Positions 759-26,318 of a DNA stretch of 26,612 bases are shown in pieces. The stretch comes from Saccoglossus kowalevskii. Its lineage: Eukaryota; Hemichordata; Enteropneusta; Harrimaniidae. Each line of letters opens with the position of its first letter. Position 1 is the first letter of the stretch. The stretch is taken from the NCBI RefSeq assembly GCF_000003605.2, contig NW_003122909.1, positions 133,392-160,003 on the forward strand, written 5' to 3'. The notes beneath the pieces are model-generated. The model searched no databases and was not told the origin of the DNA. It was given only the letters and a program-made list of their open reading frames with translations. A program made the translations under genes and the position numbers.

Positions 759-959
759 GTCCTGAAGGATATGAAGCTCATTTTGTTGGTGATCGCTACA
801 GATGTTATAAGTTTGTACTTTCACCATCACCATGGGACGATGCCAGAGATGAATGTTTGTCTACTATGCATGGTGACTTGGTGATTATTGATGATGACAT
901 TGAACTTGAGTATGTGAGCAACCAGATGAGTGACAAGGGTGTAGACAGCTATTGGATAG
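759..959 (+). CDS. Unit I CTLD, exon 1 of 2
   Basis: Begins CPEGYEAHF, with the first Cys split across the intron, then RCYKF, WDDARDEC, HGDLVIIDDD and YWIG. This is the N-terminal half of a long-form C-type lectin-like domain: the extra N-terminal Cys pair, the first core Cys in DEC, and the WIG strand. Acceptor ctcccag, donor ag|gttagt, phase 1. An earlier in-frame Met-led stretch from 605 is intronic read-through, not a start. Confidence 0.92.
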
Positions 960-1213
960 GTTAGTATCTGCTATGCCAGGATGAATTGTTGTGTTACATT
1001 GTACTATAATCAGCATGAATTTTCTTTCCCTCATGTTAATTTAATTTAATTGTTATATTTTAACTAAACAGGTGCAATATATAGTTCTAGATTTTTATGG
1101 AAATTACTAAAATGACATGTATTTTAATGGACGGCGATGCAAGATAATGCTGTTGAATGTATTAAGGATAAACGTTTTTCTCTGATTCAATTCAATCCCC
1201 AACTTTATTGCAG

Positions 1214-1411
1214 GATATTCTGACATATCTGTTGAGGGTCGATGGAAATGGATAGACTGTAGAGATTCCTCTGAATGGGATCTTTCTAACTGGGCAGAGG
1301 GAGAACCTTCAAATGGAACGTATGAAGACTGTGCCTTGGTAGATGATCTCCATTGGCAAGATAGGAATTGTAGAACACTACACTACTATGTTTGTGAAAT
1401 CAACAGAAAGG
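1214..1411 (+). CDS. Unit I CTLD, exon 2 of 2
   Basis: Encodes GYSDISVEG, WKWIDC, SNWAEGEPSNG, EDCALV, HWQDRNC and YYVCEIN: the C-terminal half of the lectin fold with three of the four core cysteines. The long-loop ligand motif is EPS rather than EPN or QPD, and the usual WND is WQD, so canonical Ca2+-dependent sugar binding is doubtful. An extra Cys (WIDC, where many family members have Gly) is shared by all three CTLDs here. Donor g|gtacag, phase 1. Confidence 0.92.
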
Positions 1412-1668
1412 GTACAGTCACCTCTTATTGAATTATCATCTATTGCAATCTTTCACATTTTGTTGCGAATTTGTCAGCTGAAAAGCAATCCACTTTAGAA
1501 ATATATGTATTATTTGACATTCTCAGTTTTATTACAGGTATTACTCGCTGTGAAGTACTTACAGTTGTCATGGTTACTAATATTCAGATTAATAACTTTT
1601 AGCTTTGATTGATATATATTACATTCTGTTGCATAAATATTTTTAAAACTGTTTTTTTTTTCGTGCAG

Positions 1669-1971
1669 AATTCGAATATCCTGATGACATAAATGTACAG
1701 GCTGTTGATGCTGTTGGTCTTTCTCCATACAATATTCATGTTACCTGGACAATATCTGACTACAACTGTGATGTGATTGGCTACAGGGTTAGATACAGGC
1801 GATCTGATTGGCTGGGTGGCTATACATATTTGTATGTTGATGGTGGTGATGCAAGTGAGATGATTCTCACAGATTTAGAAAGTTCCACCTTGTACCTATC
1901 CTACGTTGCTGCAGTGACCACAAAAGGACGTTTAGATTATGTTGGTCCAGCTGAAGCATGGACGCATCAAG
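1669..1971 (+). CDS. Unit I FN3 domain (single exon)
   Basis: A one-exon fibronectin type III domain of about 101 residues: INVQAVDAVGLSPYNIHVTW (strands A-B), NCDVIGYRVRYRR (strand C), LTDLESSTLYLSYVAAVT (E-F hairpin, with the usual Leu and Tyr) and a C-terminal AWTHQG. Flanked by phase 1 introns on both sides. It carries one Cys (YNCDV), conserved in all three FN3 copies and unusual for this family. Confidence 0.9.
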
Positions 1972-2320
1972 GTACGTGATGTTGCCATGGCAACTGTACT
2001 TGTTTATTTTGAATGAGTTTGCACTCCTATGAATTCTCTTAAACTGTAATATTAATTAGATTTATGTGTATGGCATTTATTTGTTTTTTTAAACATTGTT
2101 ATTATCAGCTAAATATTATGGTGAAAAATTCGCCAGTTTTTGCAAAAAATGTCTCGTCTTTTGGGAACTATTCAAGTTTGAAAAGTAAGACCAGGATAGT
2201 AAAGTTTTGAAAATTAACATTTATTTAGTATTTAAATTAAGAAACAATAACGAAGTATTAAAACCATTGTTTTAGTGTTTTTCCGGTATGATCTATTTAT
2301 TTTGATCTATTTTTGTTCAG
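1972..2320. other. Intron, unit I FN3 to CUB1 (349 bp)
   Basis: AT-rich, stops in all frames. No repeat, RNA gene or conserved block seen. Ends with acceptor ttgttcag. Confidence 0.85.
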
Positions 2321-2442
2321 TTTTCAAGCCACCAGCCCCACCTGTGGAGCCAGAGAAATGTGAGGGTAACTATACAACTAAAAATGGCACAATATTACGG
2401 ATCACGTCACCAGGCTACCCAGATGACTATGATAATAATGAG
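2321..2442 (+). CDS. Unit I CUB1, exon 1: Pro-rich linker and CUB start
   Basis: Encodes the linker FKPPAPPVEPEK, then CEGNYTTKNG and RITSPGYPDDYDNNE, the N-terminal CUB strand with the SPxYPxxY signature. The donor gag|gtaata is phase 0, cutting the domain just before the second CUB cysteine. Matches exons at 14322 and 26191. Confidence 0.9.
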
Positions 2443-3080
2443 GTAATAATACGGAAAGTGCCAGAACTGTAAAAAAAAATGTTTTTTTTTTGCTTACAGC
2501 AGCCTCCAGAAAAATGCATTGATGTTCAGTAAAAGTTGTTCTTTCACCACCGGACTTTCTTGTCCAAATTTTTCTGCCCTTTTTTTCTCATATTCTTCAA
2601 TATTTCTGGAAATTAACCCTAAGTTTGGAGCTAACTTTAAATTTAAACTTAAAATTTGAGTCTATTTTTAGTTTTGTAGTCAACACATTTGGCTGTTATT
2701 GTGCCAATCTTCTGAAAGAAAGTGCAAAACAGGACTATTTTGTGAATTTACTGGCTTATCAGTTTCTATAATTTCCCTATCAGAAAACAGTATATCATAC
2801 ACAATTAGCTATCTGTGGAGAACTTTTACAGTAGCACTCTGGGTGTAACACTGAAACATTCTAGCACCTTGTTCATTTTCAAAAAAATGGAAATCAAAAT
2901 GCTACCACAAAGTACTATTATCAGTTTATTATTTAAAGCATGTGTAATGCGATTTTTTTAAATAGTCTTCATGTTATTTGAAGAGTTGTAGTTCAATCCA
3001 ATCATGGTCTGTATATCGGCAATTCTATGTAATATTTACCAATTGTTATTCTCAATGCATCTCTTCATTTTTTGTACCAG
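2443..3080. other. Intron inside unit I CUB1 (638 bp)
   Basis: AT-rich with A and T homopolymers near 2472-2491. A decoy acceptor-like ttgcttacag occurs near 2500 but is not followed by CUB sequence. Nothing else recognised. True acceptor tttgtaccag. Confidence 0.8.
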
Positions 3081-3351
3081 AATTGTGAATGGCTTGTTAC
3101 TGCCTCATCACCAGACAGTACATTTATAGTTCATCTTCGTGACCTTTCAACTGAAAAGTGGTTTGATTATCTTGACATTGGTGAAGGTCATGACCTCAAT
3201 GATGCGTCCACTCGCGTTCATCACATGTCTGGTAGAATTCGTCCATGGTTTTTCTGGTCCTCATCCACTGATAAACTCTGGTTCAATTTCTATTCTGACT
3301 TTTGGACAACATATAGAGGGTTTATGGTGGACATTGAAGAGATTCTTACTG
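3081..3351 (+). CDS. Unit I CUB1, exon 2
   Basis: Encodes NCEWLVTASS, RDLSTEKWFDYLDIGEG, STRVHHMSGR and KLWFNFYSDFWTTYRGFMVD. Glu (STE), Asp (FDYL) and Asp (YSD) fit the acidic cluster of Ca2+-binding CUBs. No third or fourth CUB cysteine is present. Length 271 bp, phase 0 to phase 1. Nearly identical at nucleotide level to the unit II copy at 15032-15301. Confidence 0.92.
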
Positions 3352-3602
3352 GTGAGTACAGTGTCCCATACAATGCATATTATTTGGTCAATATTTTTTG
3401 TATTCACCAATAAATTGGCCAACAATTTGGCCATTGAAAATATTGACCAATGATATATTCCAAATAAAATTTATTCATCTCAAGTATGAAAAATACATTT
3501 AATGTTTGAAGGATGTTTTATATGTTAAATGTATCCTTTAAAACAAAATCCAAAATTGTATTATATATAAGTATAAGCTTGTAATTGTGTATATGTTTCT
3601 AG

Positions 3603-4019
3603 AAGTTCCACCAACTCAGAAACCAATACCAGTTGACCCTGAGCCAGAGGATCCGGAACCACCTGAGGAATGCGGTGGGAATATCACTATTGCACTTGGA
3701 GGATCCATAAACCTCACCTTGTTGCATTATCCCGAGAACTACGAAGACAATCTCAACTGTCTGTGGTTGATAAACACTGAAAGCAAACACAGAGTGAATG
3801 TCACATTCATTGACTTTGAGACTGAATACTGCCATGACTGGCTTGAAATAGGTAACACACATGATTATAAGGATTTGACGACTAGTACTTTGAGAGTGTC
3901 TGGTGATGATGCACCAGATGATCACATATCAACAGTGGATGAAATATGGATCACGTTTAAAACTGATTATGCCATTACATTCCGAGGGTTTCACTTGCTG
4001 TTAACAGAATATATAGAAA
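3603..4019 (+). CDS. Unit I CUB2 with Pro-rich N-terminal linker (single exon)
   Basis: Starts EVPPTQKPIPVDPEPED, a Pro/acidic spacer, then CGGNITIALGG, HYPENYEDNLNCLW, ETEYCHDWLEIGN, LRVSGDD, DEIWITFKTDY and GFHLLLTEY. The whole CUB lies in one 417-bp exon with phase 1 ends, the same length as unit II (15565). It has three cysteines: the usual first pair plus a third in EYCHDW with no partner inside the domain. Confidence 0.93.
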
Positions 4020-4608
4020 GTAAGTATACTGTCGAACTAGTTTTGCAGCTCCAAATAGTATATGGTCCATTTCTTTGCACATTAAATTGTCAGTAATGAA
4101 GTTATATATTGAAAATTTCCTAAATTTTCCTAAACAATTTAAATATACTACTAATTTTGAGCAAGTGAGATCTTATTCAAACTTGACTCCATGATTTCCC
4201 TATAAGCTGTAAGCCTACTCATATTTTTTGACAAAGACAATGTTCATTGCTTCATTATGTATAATTATAGAGACTAGCATGGCAATAGCATTCTCTTGTG
4301 TATTACGGTCATAACATCTAACTGAGGTTTGTATTTCAATAACTATTTCATTCGAATTTGCCTGCGACATGGAATATTGACTTTGAAACATGAAATGTCT
4401 GTCAGTAGAGTGTTAGCAATGTCCATCCATAATCTCCATGATTTGATTGATAAAATTGCCTTTAGTTAGTGTATAAGAATTGTATAGGGAAAATTTGTAT
4501 TTTTTTGAAACAAATCAGGACAAAAACGATTAATCTCCTTGGTAATTTGGGCCAATTGCCTCCATGAAGTTTAAGATATGAATGACGATATGATGCTTTT
4601 GTTTACAG
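4020..4608. other. Intron, unit I CUB2 to CUB3 (589 bp)
   Basis: AT-rich with no open frame of note and no recognised repeat. Acceptor tttgtttacag. Confidence 0.8.
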
Positions 4609-4986
4609 GTGATGTCATTTGTGGTGGTGATCTAACAATCCCAGCTGTGGTGGGAGCATCAGTAGATATCACATCACCAAACTATCCAGACCATTACAAC
4701 AACAATGACTACTGCAAATGGACCATCTCAGTGGTCCAGCCTGTTAAGACCTTCACTGGCATATACCATATGTATGTCAGAATCAACTCATTCGATACTG
4801 AACTGAACTTTGACTGGCTGGAAATTGGATCTGGCCATGATGACAGTGATTTTGACTCTTTGCTGTTCAGATTCTCTGGCTCAGATGTGTCTGGTTCGTA
4901 TGTCACTAACCATGATGAAGTATGGGCGTTATGGACCAGTGATAGGAGTTTCACCAAGCAAGGATTCAATGTCACCTTCTTTATAG
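4609..4986 (+). CDS. Unit I CUB3 (single exon)
   Basis: Encodes ICGGDLTIP, ITSPNYPDHYNNNDYCKW, NSFDTELNFDWLEIGSG, LLFRFSGSDVSG, EVWALWTSDRS and GFNVTFF. A complete CUB in one 378-bp exon, phase 1 on both sides, with two cysteines only. The loop between CKW and the FD strand is longer than in the other CUBs. The unit II counterpart at 16251 is 9 bp shorter. Confidence 0.92.
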
Positions 4987-5540
4987 GTATGCACAATTAC
5001 ATTAAGTGTAGGTTTGTTATAGAAATACTTGGCAATACTTGCTCTTTTAGAAGCACATGTAAATGACAAAGGTGTATCTGTAGCCAAAGTGAATCATATT
5101 TCAATGACCCAGTATACAATAAATGTCATGTTTGTCTATATGAGCTTCTATATTATTGTAGATGCGACTCTAAAACATGTATACATGTGTACATGTATCT
5201 GTCGTTATATTGTTACTATGGATTCCTTCTCATATTATAAGCAAATGAACTTCTAAACTGAATGAACTTCTATGGGGTTGTTTGATTCGATGGCAGATTT
5301 ACTTACATTAATTATATCATACTGCTGTTATATATTACATATCAAATTTTGCCACTTTTCACAAAATAAACCTGAAATAATTGTGTTCATTTTTTTGCTA
5401 TAATGTTGATGAAAACTTGTAGGCAATGGAAATGTTCATCCATTTAGTCCAAAATGAACTAAAAAATAATAAAATGTAGCACCAAAATGATGGGACAGGT
5501 TTGAACAATATGGTAAATAATAGATTTCATTTTGTTTCAG
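4987..5540. other. Intron, unit I CUB3 to CUB4 (554 bp)
   Basis: AT-rich. A short palindromic run acatgtatacatgtgtacat lies near 5177. Otherwise nothing recognised. Acceptor tttgtttcag. Confidence 0.8.
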
Positions 5541-5755
5541 TTTTCCCCTGTGGTGGAAGTCTATTTGGACCGTCTGGTAACATCACTTCTCCAGGGTACC
5601 CTAACAGATATCCACATGGAAGTAACTGTCGTTGGGACATCTTAGTCGACTCAGATAAACTTATCAAGTTTTCATTCCATGTGTTCGACCTAGAGAACAA
5701 TTATGACTACCTTTATCTGGGAGATGAGATATCAGACTCAAATTTACCACTTGTG
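5541..5755 (+). CDS. Unit I CUB4, exon 1
   Basis: Encodes FPCGGSLFGPSGNI, SPGYPNRYPHGSNCRW, KFSFHVFDLENNYDYLYLGD and ends LPLV. Donor gtg|gtaagc, phase 0. The domain is split after the DYLYLGD strand, the same place as in CUB8. Length 215 bp, identical to unit II (17188) and to the CUB8 first exons. Confidence 0.92.
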
Positions 5756-5956
5756 GTAAGCGCTAGTAATTTTGTTCAGTCTAAATATGAAAGAGTAAAA
5801 ATGTGGGTAGACATTTATCATTATCGTTATCATCATCAGATCTTCATCAGATTATCAATCCTCCTCCTTGTCAGTTCGTCATTCTCTCATCACATCCTTC
5901 TTCCTTAGATCATCATCATCAGATCTATCTATCACATCTTTGTTATCAGATTTTTG

Positions 5957-5989
<33 letters not shown>

Positions 5990-6152
5990 AATCATCAGCA
6001 TCATCATCATTATGTAGTAATTTAGTAATTATGCAGTAGAACATGAGCAGAATGTCTATCAGTAAGAGTTGCACACTTATGATGAGTGGACTGATGGGAG
6101 AGTGTATAACAAGTCTAATAATTATGTGGATATTAATTGTGTAATATTTTAG
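5756..6152. repeat. Intron inside CUB4 with an impure TCA/ATC microsatellite (about 5814-6012)
   Basis: A patchy ATC/TCA trinucleotide tract, purest at about 5958-5989, fills the middle of this 397-bp intron. It creates an artefactual Ser-rich open frame. The unit II counterpart intron (17403-17523) lacks it and is only 121 bp. Confidence 0.85.
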
Positions 6153-6279
6153 GAATTGACTGGTGACGAGCTACCAAAAGATGAGGTGCTTGATACTTAC
6201 CATGCATGGGTTCACTTTACATCAGACCTGTCTGGCGATGGGGATGGTTTCTATTTGACATATGAGGAATATGAAGAAG
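6153..6279 (+). CDS. Unit I CUB4, exon 2
   Basis: Encodes ELTGDELPKDEV, HAWVHFTSDLSGDGDGFYLT and ends YEEYEE. It supplies the last CUB strands including the SD acidic loop. Length 127 bp, phase 0 to phase 1, same as 17524-17650. Confidence 0.9.
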
Positions 6280-6839
6280 GTAAGTGAGAATATCTGGGTG
6301 CAATGTATATTGACTACATACATGTACATGTACCTGTCTGTACTTGGCATGATTGCGAAATATACAAAATAATAATCTAAACCGAACGTTTTGTTGAGAA
6401 TGATGTGACATATTGGAACAGTACTACCGGTATATAGAATTGTTAGTCTAGTACAAGTGCATATTTGTGTGGTAGTGTGTGGTATGCGTGGGTTAAATCA
6501 CTATATACTCTATATACTATTAGTTTCATAATAGTTTTAGGTATGACATTGTGCTTAATAATGTGACATTCAAGTACAATGGTATAATGAGTGTATCATG
6601 AGCATGACTTCCTGATAAAGACAGAAGCAGGACAAATTCATTCTTTTAAAATACCTGTCAACACCCTTTGGTTGCCTGGGGATTCATATTACTCCAACCG
6701 TTTTAAATAAGTTTTGTGACTAATATTTGCCATGCTGATTATAACTGAGACTTGCATGTTGATTGTTTTTGACTGTGAACAATTTGCATCATAGCATGTG
6801 GTACAAATGTGATATCCCTTTGTCTATTGTTTTCCTTAG
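6280..6839. other. Intron, unit I CUB4 to CUB5 (560 bp)
   Basis: AT-rich with a small acatgtacatgta-type palindrome near 6319. No gene or repeat family recognised. Acceptor tttccttag. Confidence 0.8.
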
Positions 6840-7208
6840 AACTGCTGATTGCTAAACCATGTGGGGGAGCTTTTGAGACAAAACCTGACTCTAAACTTGT
6901 AATCCAATCACCAAATTACCCATCTCAATATAACAACAATGAACGATGTGTGTGGAATGTCACCTCTTCACCGGGGACCAGAATGTCAGTTCGTTTCCGG
7001 GACTTTGTGACAGAACCAGGACACGATTGGGTTGATGTTGGTAATGGACTTGATGAAAGTGATTTATCAACGAGAGAAAGACATCATTCAGGTTTTATAA
7101 GACCAGTATCATGGCTATCAGCTGAAGAGGCATTGTGGATAACTTTTACCACTGATGATTCTGTCATATTTCGTGGCTTCCTTATATACATAGAGGAAAG
7201 AAATGACA
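6840..7208 (+). CDS. Unit I CUB5 (single exon)
   Basis: Encodes ELLIAKPCGGAFETKP, QSPNYPSQYNNNERCVW, RFRDFVTEPGHDWVDVGNG, ERHHSGFIRP, EALWITFTTDDS and GFLIYIEERND. Complete two-cysteine CUB, 369 bp, phase 1 at both ends. Apart from the first dozen bases it differs from the unit II exon (17886-18254) at only scattered positions, while the flanking introns differ greatly in length and content. Confidence 0.93.
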
Positions 7209-7383
7209 GTAAGTAAGAATTATTAGCGTTTGAGAAAACTTTCTTGCATGTTTTCTGAGTTTATTAGATATAATGAATGTATCACATATTAAAATAAAAT
7301 TGAAGACTATAGTAGTGAGTATTTCAGATTTTACTTTTATTTTTGGGTTATGGGTGTCCTTTCATCATCACATGCTGTATTTA

Positions 7384-7516
<133 letters not shown>

Positions 7517-7714
7517 CAAGTTTATGTATTTATATAGCTGGTTGATTCAATTCTCAAGTTGTTTAATAATTAACAAGAGCTTCTTAGATGTATATTGCAG
7601 GGGAGGTGTATGGCAGTGGCTTCAGCGTGGCAGGATATGCTCACTTTTCTCATGGTTTATCTCTATAGGGGTTCATGTGTCTTCCTAAATTGGTTGTGTT
7701 GTACTATTTTGTTG

Positions 7715-8142
7715 GCTCCGCTGTTGACTTTGTCGAGCAGAGCTTATCATATGAGTGATTGTCTGTCGTCGTCCGGCGTCCGTCGTCCGTGTCAATGTTT
7801 TATTTTTTCGACTTTTTAGATTTGTTCATTTTATGATGATATTTTCAATTCTCTAATTTTGGTTAATATTTTTGTAATTTTTGGTAAAAAGTGGTATTTT
7901 CGACTTCTTGTTAAAAACCATAAGTCCGATTGCTTTGATATTACATATTTGAGAACTACATGTGGACCTCTCTCAGATTTGTTCATTTCATGATGATGAC
8001 TTCAATTATCTAATTTTAATGAATATTTTTTGTCATTTTTGGTAAAAGTTATATTTTTGAATTCTTGTTGAAAACAGCAAGTCTGATTGCTTTGATACTA
8101 AACATATAATTTAATTGAAATATGCATTGCTAACAGCGGAGC
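7715..8142. mobile_element. Short non-autonomous DNA-transposon-like element, copy 1
   Basis: Bounded by inverted termini gctccgctgtt (7715-7725) and aacagcggagc (8132-8142), which are perfect reverse complements. Inside are two degenerate tandem repeats with a period near 157 bp (agatttgttcatt at 7818 and 7975). A shorter related copy lies at 23911-24165 with its own compensating terminal changes. No transposase frame. The MITE-like class is inferred from termini and size. Confidence 0.6.
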
Positions 8143-8688
8143 TATCTCGGCCAAAATGCTGCTTGTTGCTGTTTTCTTTGTTTTTCCAAAATTGTAAAGT
8201 TGCTTGTGGATTCTGATGGTGTTTGATTGGCATTTTTTATTTGACACATCTGTCACTATAAGTTGTAGAGGTGTCGTAATTTTGCAGTACTGCACTTTGA
8301 TATCTGCATCCTACCTTATTAGAAAATAGGCATTCCAAATATGGAATGATTACATGGTACCGGTATTTCTATGATGGTGGATCTGTTTGAAAATAAAGTT
8401 CATACTGAGAAAGTTAACCATTTTCCATAGCTCTGGGCTTTTTACCAAGTGATTTTATTGAGAAAGTATATGATATTAGGCTTATTAAGAGAACATTGTA
8501 GAATATTCACCCGGGCAATGCGTGGTTGCATCGGCCGCCACTATGTAGAACTCTTGCTGTAATATCTTTGTGATAATCTTATAAACATACAAACCAGATA
8601 CTATGTATTTTGTAAATTATTTAATATCTAATTAGAACTCTCTGGGAAAGAATAAATGATATACTAATCTGCCATTGTGTTTTTCCAG

Positions 8689-9009
8689 CTGATACCAGTG
8701 AACCTAAACCACCAGTAGTAACCACACTACCTCCTGCAATCTCTACAACTTCCATTGGCACAACAATGACTGTATCACCATAACAAGTGAAGGAACTACA
8801 ATATCGGGAACAACAATTAAAGCTACTACAGTATCACCAACACCATACTGTGGTGGTTTTATCAGTGTGCCATCTGATGGAGTTGAGACTGTGATATCAC
8901 CAAACTATCCTGAGGACTATGATGATAATTTACTGTGTGAATGGACTGTTAGTGCTAGTCCAGGCAAAAGAATCAGAGTGCATGTGGAGGATTTCAAGAC
9001 AGAAAAAAG
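8689..9009 (+). CDS. Unit I CUB6, exon 1: mucin-like linker and CUB start, with a one-base deletion
   Basis: Starts TDTSEPKPPVVTTLPPA, a Ser/Thr/Pro-rich linker likely to carry O-glycans, then YCGGFISVP, ISPNYPEDYDDNLLCEW and VEDFKTEK. Donor ag|gtgtgt, phase 2. Relative to the otherwise almost identical unit II exon (18604-18925, 322 bp) a single g is missing between 8780 and 8781: cacca|taacaag against caccagtaacaag. This makes a TAA codon in the linker and shifts the frame. The rest of the exon and everything downstream read cleanly in the expected frame, so this is either a recent null mutation or a base-calling error. Confidence 0.88.
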
Positions 9010-9236
9010 GTGTGTATTATTAAAAATATTTTCCTTTAGTCAACTTTTTTCAACAATGCATCATTAAACATGCTGGATTATAGTTGTCTTGCAATGTACT
9101 GCTGTAGTCATCGTTATTATATAGATAATTGTTTCACATATTGCTTCAAACAAAATTTCATCCTGCCCACACTGTTTATATCAACTGTTGTGATGATTTC
9201 TCTTTTCATATATCACTGATTGTTTTCTAATTACAG

Positions 9237-9421
9237 ACATGATTACCTTGATTTGGGTGATGGTTATGATATGGACAAGGAAACCTCCAGATTTGAAACT
9301 CTAACTGGCAATGAGAAAGAACAAAGTCATGTGACAGCAACAGATAAAATGTGGATGAGATTTGTTACTGATCACAGGAAGACATATCGTGGATTTAAGA
9401 TTAACCTGAGTGAAGAAAACG
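9237..9421 (+). CDS. Unit I CUB6, exon 2
   Basis: Joined at phase 2 it gives RHDYLDLGDGYDMDKE, FETLTGNEKEQ, DKMWMRFVTDHRKTYRGF and KINLSEEN. Ends phase 1 at g|gtaaga. Length 185 bp, same as 19137-19321 and nearly identical to it. No third or fourth CUB cysteine. Confidence 0.92.
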
Positions 9422-9517
9422 GTAAGAATACACAAGTCTTCCAGTGAATTGAGCATTATAGAGCATCTGTGGAACAGGATCAGACTTAAAATGTATTAAT
9501 ATGTTCTCTTTTTTCAG

Positions 9518-9676
9518 AGTGTGTTAATCAAAGTGTTGTCATACCAACTGGTGGTAGTACTATCATTACATCACCAAACTACCCAGAGAATTATGAAGAC
9601 AGTGTATTCTGTGAATGGATAGTATCTACTGAGTCACTTGGAAATATTAGGGTGTATGTGGATCATTTTAAAACAG
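9518..9676 (+). CDS. Unit I CUB7, exon 1
   Basis: Encodes ECVNQSVVIPTGG, IITSPNYPENYEDSVFCEW and VYVDHFKT. Ends phase 1 at g|gtaggt, just before the acidic strand. Nearly identical to 19414-19572. Confidence 0.92.
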
Positions 9677-10386
9677 GTAGGTCTGGCATCTTATTATGTA
9701 GCGCTTTGAAAAATGATTTGGTTTGTTGAGTGAATAGTGTATATAATGAAATATCTTTATTTTTGTTTGTTTTCAAAATTTGAAAGGATTGTTGTTTAGA
9801 TGTGAATATTGAGAGCCAATTGTGGGGATCAACTTTGTCAAACTTTCATCATAAAGTACAAGTATTTGCATATTTAGTTAATGTACTGTTGAGTCAACTA
9901 TTTGACAAGTACATGGTATGATTGAACATTTTTGAGTGAAATACCATCTTTATTGTTTAAAATGTGTTTGGTTTTTCATCAATTTATTTTTCAAGATATA
10001 CACTTCTGGCCATAGACCATATACTATAGACCTTTAATAGACATTTAATCTTTCATATTGTATGCTATCAAACTATTTGTTAGTCATTATGCAATTCAAC
10101 ATTGATGGGTCTATTAAGTTTTGGCCAAATGCACATTCATTCTTGTCATCATCAAATTCAAAATGGCAGACTGGTGGTCACTTTCTTTAAACAAATGCAG
10201 CTCCACGAAGCCATATCTCATGTCACTTGATATTATAAATATTGCCTTTGTAGTTATTTTAATGTGATATCTCACGCTCATAATACGAACATGAAAGTGA
10301 CTTGTTTTCATTGGAGAAAGAAGTGTAACAGGATTTTTTGTTGCCATTTATGTCTACATAACAAATGTCTACTTTGTACTTTACAG
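9677..10386. other. Intron inside unit I CUB7 (710 bp)
   Basis: AT-rich, no recognised repeat or gene. The minus-strand open frame near 10114-10347 has no domain resemblance and the unit II counterpart (292 bp) lacks it. Acceptor ctttacag. Confidence 0.8.
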
Positions 10387-15563: not shown

Positions 15564-15564
15564 G

Positions 15565-16619: not shown

Positions 16620-17187
16620 GTAAGGCTCCCATAGATGTTATAGTTAATGTCACTGGTGTTTAGGCAAGGTATTTGTCTGATGTTGATATCGACTGGTGTT
16701 GTACACCACCTCAAGCTACCTCTGACAAACTATGCATATTGAGTTCACAAAGCTCTCATTTGATGAAATTAGTGCTTGCCTTTACTTAAACATACTGCTC
16801 TAGAAAGTGTTATGTGATACAAGTTCTGATTGGTTGCTGATCCATGAGACTTGAACTTGATTTGCATATTAGGCGGTTGGCCAGATGTAATATATTGAAA
16901 GTGAACCAGAGCTGCCTTAATCCCAGATTTGCTTCTGTTTTATAGGTGCACATTTCATTACAAATACCCTAAGTAATCTACAACGGACAACAGATTGCTT
17001 CTGACCACAAGGTCACTTATTAACTAAAATGACAAATTATTTCAATTTTGACAGTTCTGACTACTGTCAAAAATTTGAATCTTCTGTCTTGCCAATGTGA
17101 AGTTCTTCTGTTGTTCAGTATTATTGGTCATGTAAAAGTATTTTTTATCCCATATTCAATGTTTTCTGTTTTTCTTTTCTTAACCAG
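16620..17187. other. Intron, unit II CUB3 to CUB4 (568 bp) with an inverted repeat
   Basis: At 17046-17072, ttttgacag and ctgtcaaaa form perfect 9-bp arms around a 9-base loop, and ttcaa/ttgaa extends the stem past a two-base bulge. Nothing else recognised. Acceptor cttaaccag. Confidence 0.8.
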
Positions 17188-17402
17188 TTGACCCATGTGG
17201 TGGTTCTCTGAGTGGTCCAACTGGTAATATTACATCACCAATATATCCACATCCATATCCTCATAACAGTGAATGTTACTGGAATATCACCGTAGAAGAA
17301 GATTCAATTATTAAGTTGTCTTTCTATTTCTTTGACCTGGAAAGTGGATATGATTATCTTTACGTTGGGGATTTGTTGGCAGCTGATGACCAGCCTTTGA
17401 TT
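17188..17402 (+). CDS. Unit II CUB4, exon 1
   Basis: Encodes DPCGGSLSGPTGNI, SPIYPHPYPHNSECYW, FYFFDLESGYDYLYVGD and ends QPLI. 215 bp, phase 1 to phase 0, matching 5541-5755. Confidence 0.92.
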
Positions 17403-17523
17403 GTAAGTACAGCTGCATAGCTATGCTTTTATTTGAATTTTATTATTTTATTGATGTGTTGGTACATAAATTTGTGGCTGTCAATCTCATAAGGTGTAAT
17501 AAATATTTTTTATTTTTTTATAG

Positions 17524-17650
17524 GAATTGACTGGAAGTGAGACACCAAAAGACCAGATTGTAGATACCCACAATGCATGGCTGTTGTTCACCTCTGACCT
17601 ATCTCAGGATGGTCAAGGATTTTATCTGACATATGAACAGTATGATGAAG
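17524..17650 (+). CDS. Unit II CUB4, exon 2
   Basis: Encodes ELTGSETPKDQIVDTHNAW, LFTSDLSQDGQGFYLT and ends YEQYDE. 127 bp, phase 0 to 1, donor g|gtacgt. Confidence 0.9.
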
Positions 17651-17659
17651 GTACGTAAG

Positions 17660-17793
17660 CTTAAAGGGCGACAGTCGTCGCGCCGCGCCTGTTCGATATG
17701 GGACTCATAGCAACGTATACAACGCGTGTAAAATACATTGTTTATTTACATAAAATTCAAACATGCGCTGCGCGACGATCACTGCGCTTTAAG
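17660..17793. mobile_element. GC-rich foldback (MITE-like) element, about 134 bp
   Basis: Imperfect inverted arms of 29 bases (17660-17688 and 17765-17793; 22 of 29 positions pair) rich in cgcg, standing out from AT-rich intron. Both ends carry ttaa (cttaaag and ctttaag). The unit I counterpart intron has no such segment. Class inferred from structure only. Confidence 0.55.
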
Positions 17794-17885
17794 ATTATTT
17801 GGCACTCCCTAAACATTAGTTGAAGTTCCCAAGAAAAAGATTGTTATTGCCAGGTCAATTGATAATTATTATTTTTCGTTTGCAG

Positions 17886-18254
17886 AGCTTATTATTGCAA
17901 AACCATGTGGGGGAGCTTTCGAAACAAAACCTGACTCTAAACTTGTAATCCAATCACCAAATTACCCATCTCAATATAACAACAATGAACGATGTGTGTG
18001 GAATGTCACCTCTTCACCGGGGACCAGAATGTCAGTTCGTTTTCGGGACTTTGTGACAGAACCAGGACACGATTGGGTTGATGTTGGTAATGGACTTGAT
18101 GAAAGTGATTTATCTACGAGAGAAAGACATCATTCAGGTTTTATAAGACCAGTATCATGGCTATCAGCTGAAGAAGCATTATGGATAACTTTTAACACTG
18201 ATGATTCTGTCAGATTCCGTGGCTTCCTTATATACATAGAAGAAAGAAATGACA
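17886..18254 (+). CDS. Unit II CUB5 (single exon)
   Basis: Encodes ELIIAKPCGGAFETKP, NYPSQYNNNERCVW, RFRDFVTEPGHDWVDVGNG, EALWITFNTDDSVRFRGF and ends EERND. 369 bp, phase 1 both sides. Nearly identical to 6840-7208 except the first bases. Confidence 0.93.
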
Positions 18255-18603
18255 GTAAGTCTGAATAGTTTGTTCTGGAAAACATGAAGTACGTTTGTTC
18301 CTCTGTCTGCCTACATCAGTATTTTCTATCATAAGTGTACACACTAAGTGCCATATGGATATAGTAAACTACCAAATTTGACTTGACTGCACTAAATTTT
18401 CATCTTCAACTAGACTTAGTATTACAGGTGTGGGCAGTAATTACTCATAGTTGCCTTCAGACTGATAAATGATCTTATAGTGAAAATAACGTATCAAACT
18501 ATAGATCTTAGACCAATTATATGTATTACCTGTGTTACATGTGTAACAATTCACTGTACTAATCAATATAATATTAATTATATCTGCCATTGTGTTTTTC
18601 CAG
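18255..18603. other. Intron, unit II CUB5 to CUB6 (349 bp)
   Basis: AT-rich with no insertion. Only the last part (ctgccattgtgtttttccag) resembles the unit I counterpart. Confidence 0.8.
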
Positions 18604-18925
18604 CTGATACCAGTGAACCCAAACCACCAGTAGTAACCACACTACCTCCTGCAATCTCTACAACTTCCATTGGCACAACAATGACTGTATCACCAGTAAC
18701 AAGTGAAGGAACTACAATATCGGGAACAACAATTAAAGCTACTACAGTATCACCGACACCATACTGTGGTGGTTTTATCAGTGTGCCATCTGATGGAGTT
18801 GAGACTGTGATATCACCAAACTATCCTGAGGACTATGATGATAATTTACTGTGTGAATGGACTGTTAGTGCTAGTCCAGGCAAAAGAATCAGAGTGCATG
18901 TGGAGGATTTCAAGACAGAAAAAAG
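18604..18925 (+). CDS. Unit II CUB6, exon 1: intact mucin-like linker and CUB start
   Basis: Encodes TDTSEPKPPVVTTLPPA, SPVTSEGTTISGTTIKATT, CGGFISVPSDG, ISPNYPEDYDDNLLCEW and VEDFKTEK. The Ser/Thr-rich linker of about 50 residues is uninterrupted, unlike unit I. 322 bp, phase 1 to phase 2. Confidence 0.93.
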
Positions 18926-19136
18926 GTGTGTATTATGAAAAATAATTGTAATTTTGTCACTTTTAATAATGCATAACTAAACATGCTGGATGATAGTTTT
19001 CTTGCAGTGTACTGTTGTAGTCACCGTTATAGATAATTGTGTCACATATTGCTTCAAGCTAAATTTTCATCTTATATATATCAACTGTTGTGATTATTTC
19101 TCTTCCCATATGTCGCTTATTGTTTCCTAATTACAG

Positions 19137-19321
19137 ACATGATTACCTTGATTTGGGTGATGGTCATGATATGGACAAGGAAGCCTCCAGATTTGAAACT
19201 CTAACTGGCAATGAGAAAGAACAAAGTCACGTGACAGCAACAGATAAAATGTGGATGAGATTTGTTACTGATCACAGGAAGACATATCGTGGATTTAAGA
19301 TTAATCTGAGTGAAGAAAACG
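19137..19321 (+). CDS. Unit II CUB6, exon 2
   Basis: Encodes RHDYLDLGDGHDMDKEASRF, TLTGNEKEQ, DKMWMRFVTDHRKTYRGF and NLSEEN. 185 bp. Differs from unit I by few bases (GYD to GHD, KET to KEA), and the preceding intron is also alignable to 9010-9236. Confidence 0.92.
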
Positions 19322-19413
19322 GTAAGGAGACACTTCCAGTGAGCTGAGCAATATATAGAACATCTATGGAACAGGATCAGACATAATGGTATTGATATGT
19401 TCTCTTTTTTCAG

Positions 19414-19572
19414 AGTGTGTTAATCAAAGTGTTGTCATACCAACTGGTGGTAGTACTATCATTACATCACCAAACTACCCAGAGAATTATGAAGACAGTG
19501 TATTCTGTGAATGGATAGTATCTACTGAGTCACTTGGAAATATTAGGGTGTATGTGGATCATTTCAAAACTG
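19414..19572 (+). CDS. Unit II CUB7, exon 1
   Basis: Encodes ECVNQSVVIPTGG, SPNYPENYEDSVFCEW and VYVDHFKT. 159 bp, phase 1 to 1, nearly identical to 9518-9676. Confidence 0.92.
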
Positions 19573-19864
19573 GTATGTCCGGGGTTTTGCTGTTAGAAAC
19601 TAAGAAAATGTTTTTTAAAAATGTTGTTATATCATTATTTGATTATTCAACAATTCTCATAATGCTATTGTACTATTGTCTGAATTGTTTGTTTAAAACT
19701 AGCTGTAATGTAATAATCGATTTTGCATAATTTGAATTAATTGGTAGGAAACCTTACATTAGTTTGAATGTTTATATACTTTAACTCCTCTATCTCCTAA
19801 TATCCTAAGTTGTGATTTAATTCAAACAACTTGATAAATTGAAGTTTTCATTTAAAATTTACAG

Positions 19865-20053
19865 AAAGGAACTATGATTGGGTTGACATGGGAACAGACA
19901 GTAATTCAATGAATCTGTCTACACGTATATTACATGAATCTGGTAACAAGAAGACACCACATGAATTCTATACACCGTCTAGTATTGTATGGTTAACATT
20001 CATGAGTGATCATGATAAGACTGATGATGGATTCCACATGCAACTATTTGATG
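19865..20053 (+). CDS. Unit II CUB7, exon 2
   Basis: Encodes ERNYDWVDMGTDS, RILHESGNKKTPHEFY, IVWLTFMSDHDKTDDGF and ends MQLFD. 189 bp, phase 1 to 1. Confidence 0.92.
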
Positions 20054-20470
20054 GTATTAAATCATTTAATTTTATATTCAGTTGGTGATTTTAGGTTTAT
20101 ATATCTTATGTATTAATGTTGGATCAGGTATGTAGTGATGTTGATAATGATTACTGGCATGTATTATGAAATATCCGTGCAGTTACTCAAAAGTAGCACA
20201 TCCGGTCAAATTTCTAGTCAGAGTTCTTGGTCGTAACCTGTTTTGCAAACAAATGATCAATGAAAACAATTGAAAATGTGAGAGGTACATTGTACATGCA
20301 TACAATTAATATTATAATACCAGATTCAATAAGAGGTTGTGAATTGTGTATGTTCATTTTAAGCTACACACAGTGCATTAGAAACGCATTCATTAATACT
20401 GCGTGTATGGAGTTTTGAAAGACTGTTCTCTTTAATCTGAGAATATAATTTTTTCTTGCTATCTTTTCAG
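20054..20470. other. Intron, unit II CUB7 to CUB8 (417 bp)
   Basis: AT-rich; no repeat or gene recognised. Acceptor atcttttcag. Confidence 0.8.
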
Positions 20471-20685
20471 ATGCCTGTGTTGCCGAGCATTTAACATCAG
20501 AATCTGGAGTGATATTATCACCTAATTACCCAGATGATTATCCTCATAATTTGGATTGTGTTTGGGTGATACAGTTACCTGCAGGAGAGCGTATCCATCT
20601 CATATTTGTGGACTTCTATGTGGAAAAGAATTATGACAAATTATTAATTGGAGAAGGACTAGATCCAAATTCTGATGAATATGTG
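20471..20685 (+). CDS. Unit II CUB8, exon 1
   Basis: Encodes ACVAEHLTSESG, LSPNYPDDYPHNLDCVW, FVDFYVEKNYDKLLIGEG and ends SDEYV. 215 bp, phase 1 to 0. Confidence 0.92.
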
Positions 20686-20995
20686 GTAAGGCTGTGTACA
20701 GTGATATGTGTCCAGTAGATTATGTATGTAGTAACGAATTGTGGAGAAGATTTTGCTTCAGTAATGGATGGGCTGCCTTATATGGAATGCCTGGGCTCAT
20801 CCTGACACAGAATATACTTTGTCTGCAACTGTAATCTGTAACAGATCCACTATTTCTGATAATGTTAAAAACAATGAGGGGATGGAATTGGTTACATAAC
20901 AAAAGTGCAAGAACAAAACAGCAATGATCTATATATGTTTTTGTATGTTATTTTATCATTACTATGTAGCTTTGATAACCAATTTTCTTTTTCAG
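20686..20995. other. Intron inside unit II CUB8 (310 bp)
   Basis: No repeat recognised. The minus-strand open frame at 20720-20902 has no domain resemblance. Acceptor ctttttcag. Confidence 0.8.
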
Positions 20996-21119
20996 GAATT
21001 CACTCATCGCCATGATGGAGAACATTATTTCAGTCCTAGCAACGAGATGTGGCTGAGATTCCAAACAGATTGGGATAAATCTAAACGTGGATTTGACATC
21101 ACATACAATTCTTTTAATT
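20996..21119 (+). CDS. Unit II CUB8, exon 2 (end of unit II)
   Basis: Encodes EFTHRHDGEHYFSPSNE, WLRFQTDWDKSKRGFDITY and NSFN. 124 bp. The split Cys codon is completed at 21243. Confidence 0.92.
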
Positions 21120-21242: not shown

Positions 21243-21425
21243 GCCCAGAAGGCTACACAGTTGGCTACAACTATGGATGTTACAAGTTTGTTGAAGATCC
21301 TGAAGATTGGGATGAAGCAAGACAAGATTGTGAATCAACTGAAGATGGAGATTTAGTGATAATTGACAATGAGGATGAACTAGAATTTGTACGAGATGCT
21401 ATGGATATCTCAGATTTCTGGGTTG
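21243..21425 (+). CDS. Unit III CTLD, exon 1 of 2
   Basis: Begins CPEGYTVGYNYGCYKF, then WDEARQDCESTEDGDLVIID and ends DFWVG. 183 bp, donor g|gtgagt, phase 1. Carries an 88-base stretch identical to unit II. Confidence 0.92.
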
Positions 21426-23580
21426 GTGAGTATGCATGCAGCCTGTATGTTTTTTTGTTGAAGTTGTCCCTCTAATGTGAAAGCATGCCAGTAATAATAT
21501 AATTGTTTTTCACCAAATTATATAATTATATAAAAGGATGACCGGAAATTTGATGATGAAGCTATGTTGTATATAATAAAGCTATGTCATACCTTTTACT
21601 CCTGTGTTTGAAGCACACAATGGGAGTCTTTGCAATTACCCTGTCTGTATGCATGTGTGTGTGTGTGTGTGTCCGTTCCACTGATATCTCAAGAACCGTA
21701 TGTTGGTTTTTAATGAAACTTGGTGCATAGATGCTCTTGGCTAATGCACAGTTTTGATTAGGTTTTGGTTGAAATCCATGCATATTAATTACCTGATTTG
21801 CATGATAATTAGCTATTTTTTTTATTTTGATGAAACCTGGTACATAGATGCTCTGGATTAATGCTCATATGTGATTAGTTTTGGGTAAAAATCCATGCTT
21901 ATAATTAACCTAATTTGCATAATGATTAGTCAATTTTCGTTTTTTTTCACTGATATCTCAGATACTAATGATCACATTTCAATGAAACTTTAATACATAG
22001 ATACATAGGATGATGCACAGACAGATATGTGAAATATTAATTACCTAATTTACATAATTAATCAATTTTCAGTTTTTGATAATTCAAGAACTATTACAGA
22101 CTTCATTACTTTTCAATGATACTTGGTACATAGATGCTCTAGAACAATCCAAAGACCTGATTAATTTTCAGTAAAAATATGTGCATATTAATCATCTAAT
22201 TTGCGTAATTAGTTAATTTTTGGCTTTTACACGGATATCGCAAGTACTAATTATCCCATTTCAATGAATTTTGGTACAGACCTGATTAGTTTTGCGTTAA
22301 AATTAGTACATATTAATTACCTAATTTGCATAATTAGCCAATTTTCTGCTTTTACACTAATATCACATGTACTAATTATTCCATTTCAAAAAAACTTGAT
22401 ACATTGATGCTCCAGAGCAGTACACAGACCCGCTCAGTTTTGAATTAAAATCAGATCATATTAATTACCTAATTTGCATAATAAATCTTATTTTTTGGTT
22501 CTAATCACATTTTAATGAAACTTCGTACATAGATGGTCTGTGGCAGTACTTATCTTAATTCAATGAATCTTAGTACATATGTAATCTAACACAATGTGAT
22601 GATCAAACTAGTTTTAGGTTTTTATACATCTATAATAATTATTTACTTTTCAGCTTTCCACTAATTTAGTTAGGATTAATCATCACATTATAATGAAACC
22701 TTTTACATGTGCACCCTGAAACAATATACAGACCTAAATCTATGCATAATAATTGCTTAATTTGTATAATAATTTATTTGGTTAATTGAGGTAATCCACA
22801 GACATGATTAGTTTAATGTTGATAAACATGCATATTGATTATTTATTATTAGCCCATTTCTGATATCTAAAAAAATCAGATTTAAATTGAATTCATCGCA
22901 GAGGTGCTCTGGAATAAATTAGACTAAAAACCATGGATGAAAAATCAAATGTATTTTCTGTATGTATTATATAAATTTTGATAATGTGAATCACATTTTT
23001 TTCAAGTTATGCATCTCAAATAGCAGACAAAAATCAGTTGCCAAGCTTCTCATTTGAAAAGCAAATCCTAAATTTTGAATTAATTTTTAATATGTCTGCA
23101 ATACTCTCAGCACACGAGAGTTCTTTTTAAGCTTTCTTTGATTAAAATTTGTTTTCACATAATTTTTGTATAAATTAATTTGTAACTATCAAATGTCCAC
23201 CTGTTTGCCATATCGTACAGTTACCGTACTGGTGTTTTTTCAAAATTACTAATTCTTAGCTAGTAGACACGTCAGGTATGATTAGGGATTGATAACCTGT
23301 TGCAGTTCAAAGTTTGAAAGAATTTGTCCCTGTCTTTAAAATACTGTTAATCCTTTGAGTCCTAATGCAAATATTTTCACCTTTTGTGAAATTTTCGCTG
23401 AATTTTATCATAAATTTAGACCATACAAATATTGCTTTTCGTTTTTGATAAATGGTTTGCCAATATTTATCAATATTTCATGTGGAAAGAAGCGAACTGT
23501 ATAATATGAATTTGCCAAATTTGACATTATTCACATTTTCCTATCATCATGCAACTCTATTTATTCTCTTATATATCTAG
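21426..23580. repeat. Large intron inside unit III CTLD (2155 bp) with a diverged AT-rich tandem array
   Basis: From about 21690 to 22800 there are roughly nine decayed copies of a unit with spacing about 115-150 bp. Recurrent phrases are aatgaaacttggtacataga, gacctgattagttttg, and attaattacctaatttgcat followed by aatta. A (TG)n run lies at 21654-21672. The remainder to 23580 is unremarkable AT-rich sequence. The intron is the longest seen; counterparts are 254 and 384 bp. Confidence 0.8.
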
Positions 23581-23781
23581 GTTATTATGATGTGGCTGAA
23601 GAAGGAAACTGGGTGTGGATAGACTGTTCAGAATCTACAGTTTGGCACTTGGATAACTGGGCAGTATTACAACCAAGCGGAAGAGCCTATGAAGATTGTG
23701 TTGTTGTAAATAGCTTTGGTAGATGGAATGATGTTGACTGTAGACACAACCAACCCTATGTTTGTGAAATCACTCCAAAAC
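23581..23781 (+). CDS. Unit III CTLD, exon 2 of 2
   Basis: Encodes YYDVAEEGNWVWIDC, LDNWAVLQPSGRAYEDC, RWNDVDC and QPYVCEITPK. WND is retained here but the loop motif is QPS rather than QPD. The extra IDC cysteine is conserved. 201 bp, donor c|gtaata. Confidence 0.92.
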
Positions 23782-24569
23782 GTAATATTCATCATTTTTT
23801 ATATCATAATCATAATCATCCCATAATGATTATATCATAATCATTGTAAGGACTGTGTTGCGAGGACTAGTAGTCCCCATCATCAGGCTTTGAATCAGCC
23901 TTTTTTGTTAGCTCTGCTGTCAAGTGGAGCTTATCATGAGTGATTGTTCCTCGTCCATGTCAATTTTTTACATACTTGGTGTATATGTACCCTGGGCAGA
24001 CCACTCTCAGATTTGTTCATTTCGTGATAATATTTGGTAAAAAGTGATATTTTCGAATTCTTTTTGAAAACAGCAAATCCTATTGCTTTGATACTATACA
24101 TATTGTTCATGTTCTAATGATATTTTCAGTTCATTAATTGAAATGTGCATTTCTAATAGCAGAGCTATCTCAGCCGACAGGCTGCTTGTTTAAATTAATT
24201 AGTCACTCTATGGCTTAGAAAAGAGAGACATGTCAGTGCCAATCTTAATTTTAATTGAGCTATCAACCTGTTGACTATAAAAATGTTCATACTATTTGCA
24301 TTATTAGATTTGCTCATACTAGCTGTATGCAAAAATAAGTTATAGTCTAATAACTCAGCATACAATAATCATACATTGTTTGCTTTATTGGAGGTGTGTT
24401 TCTAATAGAGTAAATATATAAATATTTGCAGGAATAGTAGGCTAAAAATCTGAAACTATAACTGTCATTCATTAATATGTAGTTTTTATTTAGCATTTTC
24501 TATTTTGATTACTCTTGTTTTAAATCTGTCTAGCAGCATTATCTTGACTGTTAATTTCGTTTTCTCCAG
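23782..24569. other. Intron, unit III CTLD to FN3 (788 bp) with a dispersed element
   Basis: Contains the second short inverted-terminus element (23911-24165). The rest is AT-rich with no gene. Acceptor ttctccag. Confidence 0.8.
23911..24165. mobile_element. Short non-autonomous DNA-transposon-like element, copy 2
   Basis: Starts gctctgctgt and ends atagcagagc, an inverted pair with one mismatch. Shares agcttatcat, gagtgattgt, cagatttgttcatttc, tggtaaaaagtg and agagctatctc with copy 1 at 7715-8142. Shorter, because only one internal repeat is present. Confidence 0.6.
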
Positions 24570-24869
24570 CATTTGAAGAGGAAGACAAGAATGTTCAGAG
24601 TGTGGATGGTGAGGCAATGTCATCGTCAGAAATTCTTGTCACTTGGACAATATCAGAATACAACTGTGATGTCTTGGGATATTATGTGAAATACCACAGA
24701 TTGGATTGGGTTGGTGGTGCTGTTGTTGTTGATGTACCTGGCGGAGCTATGACGGAGACTATGCTAACTAGACTTGACTCTTCAACCTGGTATGCCTTAT
24801 ATGTTGCTGCGTACACCCACAAAGGAGCACTGGAATATGTGGAAGGAGATCCTGTCCAAACTCATGAAG
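24570..24869 (+). CDS. Unit III FN3 domain (single exon)
   Basis: Encodes PFEEEDKNVQSVDGEAM, ILVTWTISEYNCDVLGYYVK, RLDSSTWYALYVAAYTHKG and ends QTHEG. 300 bp, phase 1 both sides, with the same single Cys as the other FN3 copies. Confidence 0.9.
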
Positions 24870-26190
24870 GTATAAAACATATCACATAATATATTAATTG
24901 TTGATGTACTAATATATGAAATGCACTCGAAATAAATTGAAACAAAGAGTAAAAACGAAAGTGACGCTTAGAGGCATGTGCAAATACAGGTCCATAGGTG
25001 AGAGGATAGTGATTAACAGAATATGATTGGTTGAGGGTTTTCATTCAGAATCTTGAAATGATGTAAAGCTCAGAACCATGCTCTTACAACATCAAAAAAA
25101 AAACTCAGAAAATCACAATATTTGTTATAAGTATTGATATCCCACAACTGCACTAGTGTAACAGCTTTCCATCCAACCTATCATATCGATCATTTTTCCA
25201 TCACATTACAGTTGCACATTTTAATATTGCATTCATGTCATGCTTTTATCACACCATCCATTTGAAAATCCAAGCAACAATACCAAACTATAATCCAAAC
25301 AATCAATGTCAAAAGGCAATATTTACAAATCCGATAACACACGGGGGACACACAAACAAAACAAACAACACACTGTCAAATCGATACATGGACCTCAAGG
25401 CACAAACCAAGAGGTGATGTCAGGTGTTTCGAAAAGAGTGAGCACATCCTGCTCTACATGTGGCACCCGCCATATATCTCTCTGAGTCACAATCTACCAC
25501 ACTAGGAATCTAAATGCTAAATGTTGTTTGACTCCTGTGGTCATTACATGTTGAAACCAGAGATTTTGCAATTTTTTTTAATAAAAGATGCACTAGAAAT
25601 ACAATTTCTGTGGTTCTATTGGGTCTACAGCATGGTGCACTAAAATGTGATATGAAAATATTTGTTGTCAGAGTTAATGCAATATTAAAATAGGCTATGA
25701 AAATATAACTGTTGGCTGACACAGATACATGTAAATAGAGGAATCTGTGAGACATACTGGATAAAACTCTACTGCATACCAGTGAATAGTTTTCAAATGC
25801 ATGAAATATTGCATGTTAGCATTCAGGGTTTCAAACTCGCATGGTTTTACATCTATAATGCAATTTCCATTAATGTATAAAACGTTACATACAAATGTAA
25901 AAGGCAATAATACAAAGCTAGGGTTTTTGTTATGGTGCCTAGGCAATGTAGATGTCTGATTGGTTAAAATGTTGTGTAAACAAACAACACCATGCCTTTA
26001 CTTATATGTGACTGACAACCTCTGCCCTTTGTAGAATTTGTGTGTAGTTTAGTAGAAAAGATTAGTAAATCTGTCAATAATGATATCAAGTTTGTATTGT
26101 CCTATAATTCAGTCCTCAACTTGTCAACTTTCTCTCTCTTTCTTCTGAATTACTAGTATATTGATTCCATTGTTTGTTACTTTTCTCAAG
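24870..26190. other. Intron, unit III FN3 to CUB1 (1321 bp)
   Basis: Only a small A/C-rich run (acaaacaaaacaaacaacac, near 25352) is noticeable. Open frames on both strands here are short and lack any domain resemblance. Acceptor ttttctcaag. Confidence 0.8.
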
Positions 26191-26318
26191 TTGTGAAGCC
26201 ACCAGAACCAGTCCCAGACGAGCCTAGTAAGCACTGTGGTAGCAACTATACAGTGAAAAATGATTCAGTGATAAGAATTACTTCACCTAACTATCCAGCT
26301 CACTACGGTGATAATGAG
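26191..26318 (+). CDS. Unit III CUB1, exon 1: Pro-rich linker and CUB start
   Basis: Encodes VKPPEPVPDEPSKHCGSNY, then RITSPNYPAHYGDNE. Donor gag|gtaagc, phase 0. By analogy with units I and II the second CUB1 exon follows beyond 26612, so unit III continues out of the window. Confidence 0.9.

Follow-up and report, generated by a model that had tools for sequence, protein, structure and literature searches.

We wondered how a gene that encodes the same series of ten extracellular domains several times over might keep some of its repeated parts almost identical while neighboring parts diverge. Such a locus lies on contig NW_003122909.1 of the hemichordate Saccoglossus kowalevskii (assembly GCF_000003605.2), from which we analyzed 26,612 nucleotides (positions 133,392 to 160,003 of the forward strand, hereafter the window). 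An intron-rich gene on the + strand of the window carries successive units composed of a C-type lectin domain (CTLD), an FN3 domain and eight CUB domains. The exon structure and the domain order repeat from unit to unit, the units pair position by position, and patches of near-identity connect the two complete copies (units I and II). We consider it probable that this is one gene for a giant extracellular protein of repeated CTLD-FN3-CUBx8 units that grew by unit duplication, was patchily converted and acts in multivalent adhesion or recognition.

The DNA of the window is AT-rich, its GC content ranging from 0.27 to 0.37 per kb. Exons were placed from reading frames and GT/AG splice sites and were then checked by script. 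All 37 model introns run from GT to AG, a count that is partly given by construction because exon edges were set on these dinucleotides; the open frames, phases and domain matches are independent of it. Unit I (759-11359) and unit II (11521-21119) each comprise 16 exons in the order CTLDa, CTLDb, FN3, CUB1a, CUB1b, CUB2, CUB3, CUB4a, CUB4b, CUB5, CUB6a, CUB6b, CUB7a, CUB7b, CUB8a and CUB8b. A preliminary description, made from the letters of this DNA alone, had proposed the same 16 exons in the same order, with shared phases and mostly equal lengths, and this was confirmed: phases match exon by exon except for the shift caused by a lesion in unit I, and 10 of 16 pairs agree in length (counting the merged copies of unit II CUB1b) while five differ by 3 or 9 nt. 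CUB6a is the sole pair that differs by 1 nt (321 nt in unit I, 322 nt in unit II). The same account correctly noted that an upstream unit finishes (CUB8, 1-468) and a third one begins (the first four exons, CTLD-FN3-CUB1a, 21243-26318) in the window. Once two partial CUB1b copies are merged, unit II translates into 1258 aa without a stop, and a Pfam search of this spliced translation recovered the predicted Lectin_C, fn3 and eight CUB stretches (PF00431, E 2.8e-148). For unit I, the piece before the lesion contains Lectin_C, fn3 and five CUB stretches and the piece after it three. The units had also been called identical, which holds for their architecture but not for their sequence.

Indeed, the relationship between units I and II is a mosaic. 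In a tree of 17 CUBs, every CUB of unit I pairs with the CUB of the same number in unit II (8/8), and therefore whole units appear to have been duplicated. Ten of the 16 exon pairs (CTLDa, CTLDb, FN3, CUB1a, CUB2, CUB3, CUB4a, CUB4b, CUB8a and CUB8b) show a synonymous divergence (dS) from 1.45 to saturated; protein identity is 45-76% over the CTLD, FN3, CUB1a, CUB2-4 and CUB8 exons. In contrast, six exons (CUB1b, CUB5, CUB6a/b and CUB7a/b) are 95.6-99.5% identical between the units, with dS values of 0.16 for CUB1b, 0.14 for CUB5, 0.06 each for CUB6b, CUB7a and CUB7b, and 0.02 for CUB6a (the 74 codons downstream of the lesion only). We applied a segment test to 3750 aligned exon columns, using 2000 column shuffles that gave a maximum score of 216. 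The stretch from CUB5 to the start of CUB8a scored 1107 at 98.0% identity, clearly above this maximum. Silent sites are thus more similar within the tracts than in neighboring stretches, as in concerted evolution of the VERL kind. The CTLD-FN3 heads differ between units; over CTLD, FN3 and CUB1a, unit I and unit III are 54% and 61% identical, respectively, to unit II. Wherever dS was finite in diverged I/II, I/III and II/III exon pairs, the ratio of nonsynonymous to synonymous divergence (dN/dS) was 0.09-0.30, as expected if these exons evolve under purifying selection.

The near-identical exons are distributed as follows. CUB1 is encoded at 2321-2442 and 3081-3351 in unit I, where the second exon is the near-identical one, and begins at 14322-14446 in unit II. 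CUB5 occupies a single exon (6840-7208 and 17886-18254) and lies in a tract that covers 6848-7214 of unit I. A Ser/Thr linker plus CUB6 follows at 8689-9009 and 9237-9421 (unit I) and at 18604-18925 and 19137-19321 (unit II), and the first of these exons shows 2 mismatches over 321 aligned bases. CUB7 is found at 9518-9676 and 10387-10575 in unit I and at 19414-19572 and 19865-20053 in unit II, alike except for its inner intron. Among the diverged parts, the CTLD lies at 759-959 and 1214-1411 (unit I, Lectin_C E 6.9e-19) and at 11521-11712 and 12097-12297 (unit II, E 7.5e-17), the single-exon FN3 at 1669-1971 and 13355-13648, the single-exon CUB2 at 3603-4019 (unit I, with a Pro/Glu-rich linker) and 15565-15981, and the single-exon CUB3 at 4609-4986 and 16251-16619. 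Unit III contributes a CTLD (21243-21425, 23581-23781; E 3.4e-21), an FN3 (24570-24869) and the first CUB1 exon (26191-26318), which is too short for a Pfam CUB match, the window ending in the next intron. From the upstream unit there are two CUB8 exons (1-153, cut by the window start, and 345-468; CUB E 3.2e-20).

CUB4 and CUB8 deserve a separate remark. The first exons of CUB4 (5541-5755 in unit I, 17188-17402 in unit II) and of CUB8 (10783-10997 and 20471-20685) all measure 215 nt and end at an intron in the matching place; the second exons lie at 6153-6279 and 17524-17650 (CUB4) and at 11236-11359 and 20996-21119 (CUB8). The two domains group together in the tree (support 0.979), and their likeness preserves a trace of the origin of the eight-CUB series.

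How far does the near-identity extend beyond the exons? Four I/II tracts exceed 90% identity, and all eight of their ends lie 1 to 22 bp from exon edges. The largest (8667-9679, partner 18582-19575) runs through CUB6a, an intron, CUB6b, a second intron and CUB7a. When the 16 I/II intron pairs were aligned locally, only three scored above the best of 60 shuffles: CUB6a>6b (88%), CUB6b>7a (91%) and CUB5>6a, the last over 33 bp at its 3' end. The other 13 pairs showed no detectable similarity; between units II and III, none of the three pairs tested exceeded the maximum of 30 shuffles. Five of the six introns that adjoin tract exons share no 12-mer, and the sixth, CUB5>6a, has 22 bp in common at the 3' end. 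Even CUB7a and CUB7b, 98-99% identical between units I and II, are separated by an intron without any common 12-mer. As a control, introns were mutated in silico with 16% substitutions and 3% small indels, a scheme that does not model wholesale intron replacement by insertions or deletions, and these scored at least 106 compared with 17-45 for the six tract-flanking pairs; therefore intron similarity as old as the exon tracts would not have escaped detection.

We read this pattern as patchy concerted evolution by gene conversion that would be largely confined to exons. However, a simple exon-only rule does not describe it. Two introns are similar within the main tract, a 60-bp match (88%, I/II) lies inside the CUB8b exon, and a 95-bp match (98.9%, II/III) lies inside the CTLDa exon (11544-11638, partner 21266-21360). 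The two introns inside the main tract differ at 26/209 and 11/90 aligned bases and are more diverged than its synonymous sites (37/299 versus about 5/119; Fisher p 0.011). On an ordinary reading, homology-dependent gene conversion would have acted only where the copies still matched, which is mainly in exons. A bolder and rather doubtful alternative is that homogenization was intron-sparing, with exons rewritten from unit to unit and most adjoining introns left untouched, for instance by repair templated on spliced RNA or cDNA or by looping out of unlike introns. cDNA-mediated conversion as the sole cause was set aside because the tract at 8667-9679 also carries two similar introns. The sharp limit of homogenization near splice sites makes the mechanism of conversion testable in close relatives.

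Near-identity of exons might also be produced during assembly, if reads of one unit were drawn into the other, and the assembled sequence does contain faults. In unit II CUB1b, a run of Ns (14797-14911) is flanked by two copies of one intron/exon sequence that differ by single-T losses. Across 14570-15122, the sequence that precedes the gap recurs behind it, several TT having become T, as would be seen if two overlapping contigs had not been merged. Most simply, the gap is an assembly fault and unit II CUB1b is one exon read twice (14703-14796 and 15032-15301); a second CUB1b exon in this unit was set aside since the gap flanks are duplicates. In addition, CUB6a of unit I is short of one base relative to unit II near 8780. 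The resulting frameshift brings a stop into the Ser/Thr linker that precedes CUB6, and the assembled sequence of unit I therefore has no continuous open frame. This lesion may be a sequencing error, a recent event, or a change that is tolerated because splicing omits the two CUB6 exons, which together run from phase 1 to phase 1. Both the gap with its duplicated flanks and the 1-nt lesion would suit an artefact, but the two copies are not one collapsed consensus, as about 14 of 366 nt differ in CUB5. The tracts other than CUB1b lie kilobases away from the gap, and the differences between the paired introns of the main tract speak against collapse as well. An assembly artefact is therefore an unlikely source of the near-identical exons.

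Extreme constraint at the nucleotide level, rather than conversion, would account for the fact that the near-identical stretches are mainly exons and that most flanking introns are dissimilar. This explanation would, however, require nucleotide constraint in six exons only, with dS of 0.02-0.16 right beside saturated exons, and coding constraint leaves the two main-tract introns unexplained, which are 88-91% identical. We consider it very improbable. Hardly any better or worse is the suggestion that the array is a decaying or partly pseudogenized locus: the frameshift in unit I CUB6a fits it, but the other exons are open in the model (unit II CUB1b after merging), no splice dinucleotide is damaged and dN/dS stays far below 1.

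We then considered whether the units belong together. The introns at the unit junctions measure 290, 161 and 123 bp. Every CUB8b exon ends in phase 1 and every CTLDa exon starts in phase 1, the split codon being that of the first CTLD cysteine. Being bounded by phase-1 introns, a unit can therefore be duplicated without breaking the frame. Because such short phase-1 junction introns leave hardly any room for a gene end, a promoter and a signal-peptide exon, the array very probably belongs to a single gene. The proposal of a tandem array of whole units inside one gene is thus supported by the shared exons and phases, the junctions and the pairing of all eight CUB positions. Least probable among the alternatives is a tandem series of separate paralogous genes that each start and stop on their own. 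A protein of about 1,260 residues would be of plausible size, and AATAAA occurs in 2 of 3 junction introns; however, 9 of 34 other introns also contain this motif, and the matched phase-1 sites rebuild a cysteine codon across every junction.

How might such a protein be built? C1 and C2 are present in all 16 complete CUBs and a C3-C4 pair in none; 14 of these domains contain two cysteines and the two CUB2 copies three. Almost all CUBs are described as having four cysteines that form C1-C2 and C3-C4 disulfides (PMC3100851), so the CUBs of the units depart from this canonical form in that the second disulfide is missing in 16 of 16. An acidic Glu/Asp/Asp triad is conserved in 17 of 17 CUBs (16 complete and one partial). 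In the CUBs of C1s and TSG-6, the Glu, Asp, Asp triad binds calcium, and the triad-bearing CUBs described here possess these residues and hence putative calcium sites. CUB4 aligns its triad with the same residues of PCPE-1, and the loop from the Glu to the first Asp, which would carry C3, is four residues shorter. An AlphaFold prediction of unit II CUB5 (six window sequences) reached a predicted local distance difference test score of 84.9 in the best of five models (70.1-83.3 in the others). Foldseek matched this model to CUBs of PCPE-1, TSG-6 and neuropilin with template-modeling scores of about 0.8 over the query, and PDB matches of the CUBs include cubilin, PCPE-1, MASP and neuropilin. Several CUBs of the units also exceed the cut-offs of PF23061 and PF23062 (124.5 bits for PF23062 in unit II, cut-off 32); this is a CUB subfamily match shared with M02D8.5-like CUB proteins, and as those models name CUB domains only, the comparison holds at the domain level. 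Unit II has a calculated isoelectric point of 4.36 and 12 sequons.

The head domains match the profiles of their families. All three CTLDs match PF00059 (62.5-76.4 bits, cut-off 22.6) and the three FN3s match PF00041 (28.8, 32.1 and 31.4 bits, cut-off 25; unit I accounts for the value of 32.1). The best 60 of 237 PDB matches of the CTLDs comprise the mannose-receptor family and other lectins. Canonical calcium-dependent sugar-binding CTLDs combine EPN or QPD with WND. At the corresponding site 2, unit I has EPS/WQD, unit II EPD/WID and unit III QPS/WND, and none of the three carries the full canonical set.

Taken together, we propose that the array grew by duplication of whole units through symmetric phase-1 introns and that later gene conversion kept the second half of CUB1 and CUB5 to CUB7 alike, while the heads and the other CUBs would have drifted under purifying selection. 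The CUB strings might form acidic, probably calcium-stabilized rods that present diverged CTLD-FN3 heads about every 1,260 residues, which would provide avidity for a partner. For a general role in multivalent extracellular adhesion or recognition we see roughly even chances. Specific roles in an egg coat, an adhesive, immunity or a matrix are each doubtful.

Several points weigh against this proposal. The incomplete sugar-site residues suggest that the CTLD heads may not bind sugar. The CUB1b segment scored 233 (95.4% identity), only narrowly above the shuffle maximum, and its I/II comparison draws on sequence affected by an assembly fault. The CUB6a frameshift, if real, truncates the protein unless the pair of CUB6 exons is skipped. 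The window showed neither a signal peptide nor a membrane anchor nor an end of the gene, and the AATAAA motifs in junction introns count on the same side. Finally, the evidence does not separate egg coat, adhesive, immune and matrix roles.

Repeated and partly homogenized modules are known from proteins that recognize a fast-changing partner, and we compared the units with such systems. In abalone VERL, repeats 3-22 are homogenized by concerted evolution and repeats 1-2 diverge under selection (PMC9265791). The likeness is that some repeats are homogenized and some are not. However, VERL consists of single ZP-N-like repeats of 153 aa, whereas the homogenized patches described here lie inside a ten-domain, 16-exon unit. 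The sea urchin egg bindin receptor EBR1 is reported to combine CUB with TSP1 repeats (PMC9265791). It is an ADAMTS-family protein that differs from the CTLD-FN3-CUBx8 module, and Pfam detected no TSP1 or metalloprotease domain in the units seen, the window being only a part of the gene. By analogy, and as far as these published descriptions go, EBR1 and VERL appear to be the nearest working analogues. DMBT1 is described as a multivalent pattern-recognition protein of tandem single-exon domains plus CUBs (PMC3100851), but its array consists of SRCR domains followed by two CUBs and a ZP domain. Diverged lectin heads on partly homogenized CUB rods would offer a natural test of which parts are held uniform and which are free to vary.

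The best PDB sequence match of the whole unit is a cubilin fragment (3kq4). Cubilin is a plain string of 27 CUBs after an EGF stretch. Long CUB strings are common to both proteins, but in the array a CTLD-FN3 pair sits between CUB8 and the next CUB1 and the CUBs lack the second disulfide, so that the units fall outside the cubilin type, as the preliminary description had stated. It had further stated that it knew of no described family with this exact unit. The CTLD-FN3-CUBx8 order was indeed not found among the open-access papers listed, nor did PMC11797021 or PMC4224354 yield anything on it, a weak test that does not prove the unit novel. The combination of the three domain kinds is already in print, though: Patiria miniata PMI_003522 is given as a C-type lectin protein with additional Cub and FN3 domains, identified from one peptide hit at 41% probability (PMC5460417). 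The comparison with the unit is one of domain kinds. Relatives of unit II CUB5 and of CTLD-FN3 were sought in viral, bacterial and archaeal contigs, where none was confirmed (6 and 44 pattern matches for CUB5, 33 and 108 for CTLD-FN3, none kept by tblastn), a result with little bearing on animals.

Beyond the exons, RNA genes were set aside, as the window yielded no Rfam match at the gathering score. Other genes in introns were set aside as well: of 48 open reading frames, seven intronic ones were scanned, and these gave only two Pfam matches, both below the cut-off (15.3 bits, cut-off 27; 15.6 bits, cut-off 25). The introns do contain repeats. An (ATTCT)n array of about 21 copies (15457-15563) abuts the 3' splice site of the unit II CUB2 exon, which starts at 15565, and therefore the repeat itself supplies the pyrimidine tract. 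In the unit II CTLDb>FN3 intron, a 41-bp minisatellite forms 18.5 copies (12356-13119); units I and III have no such array in the output of the repeat finder. One dispersed repeat family, 65-72% identical, is represented in the unit I CUB5>6a intron (7704-8167) and the unit III CTLDb>FN3 intron (23900-24190) and is possibly a transposable element. In unit III, degenerate repeats of 117-125 bp with a TAATTTGCATAAT core (21676-22814) take up a large part of the CTLDa>CTLDb intron, which is 2155 bp long.

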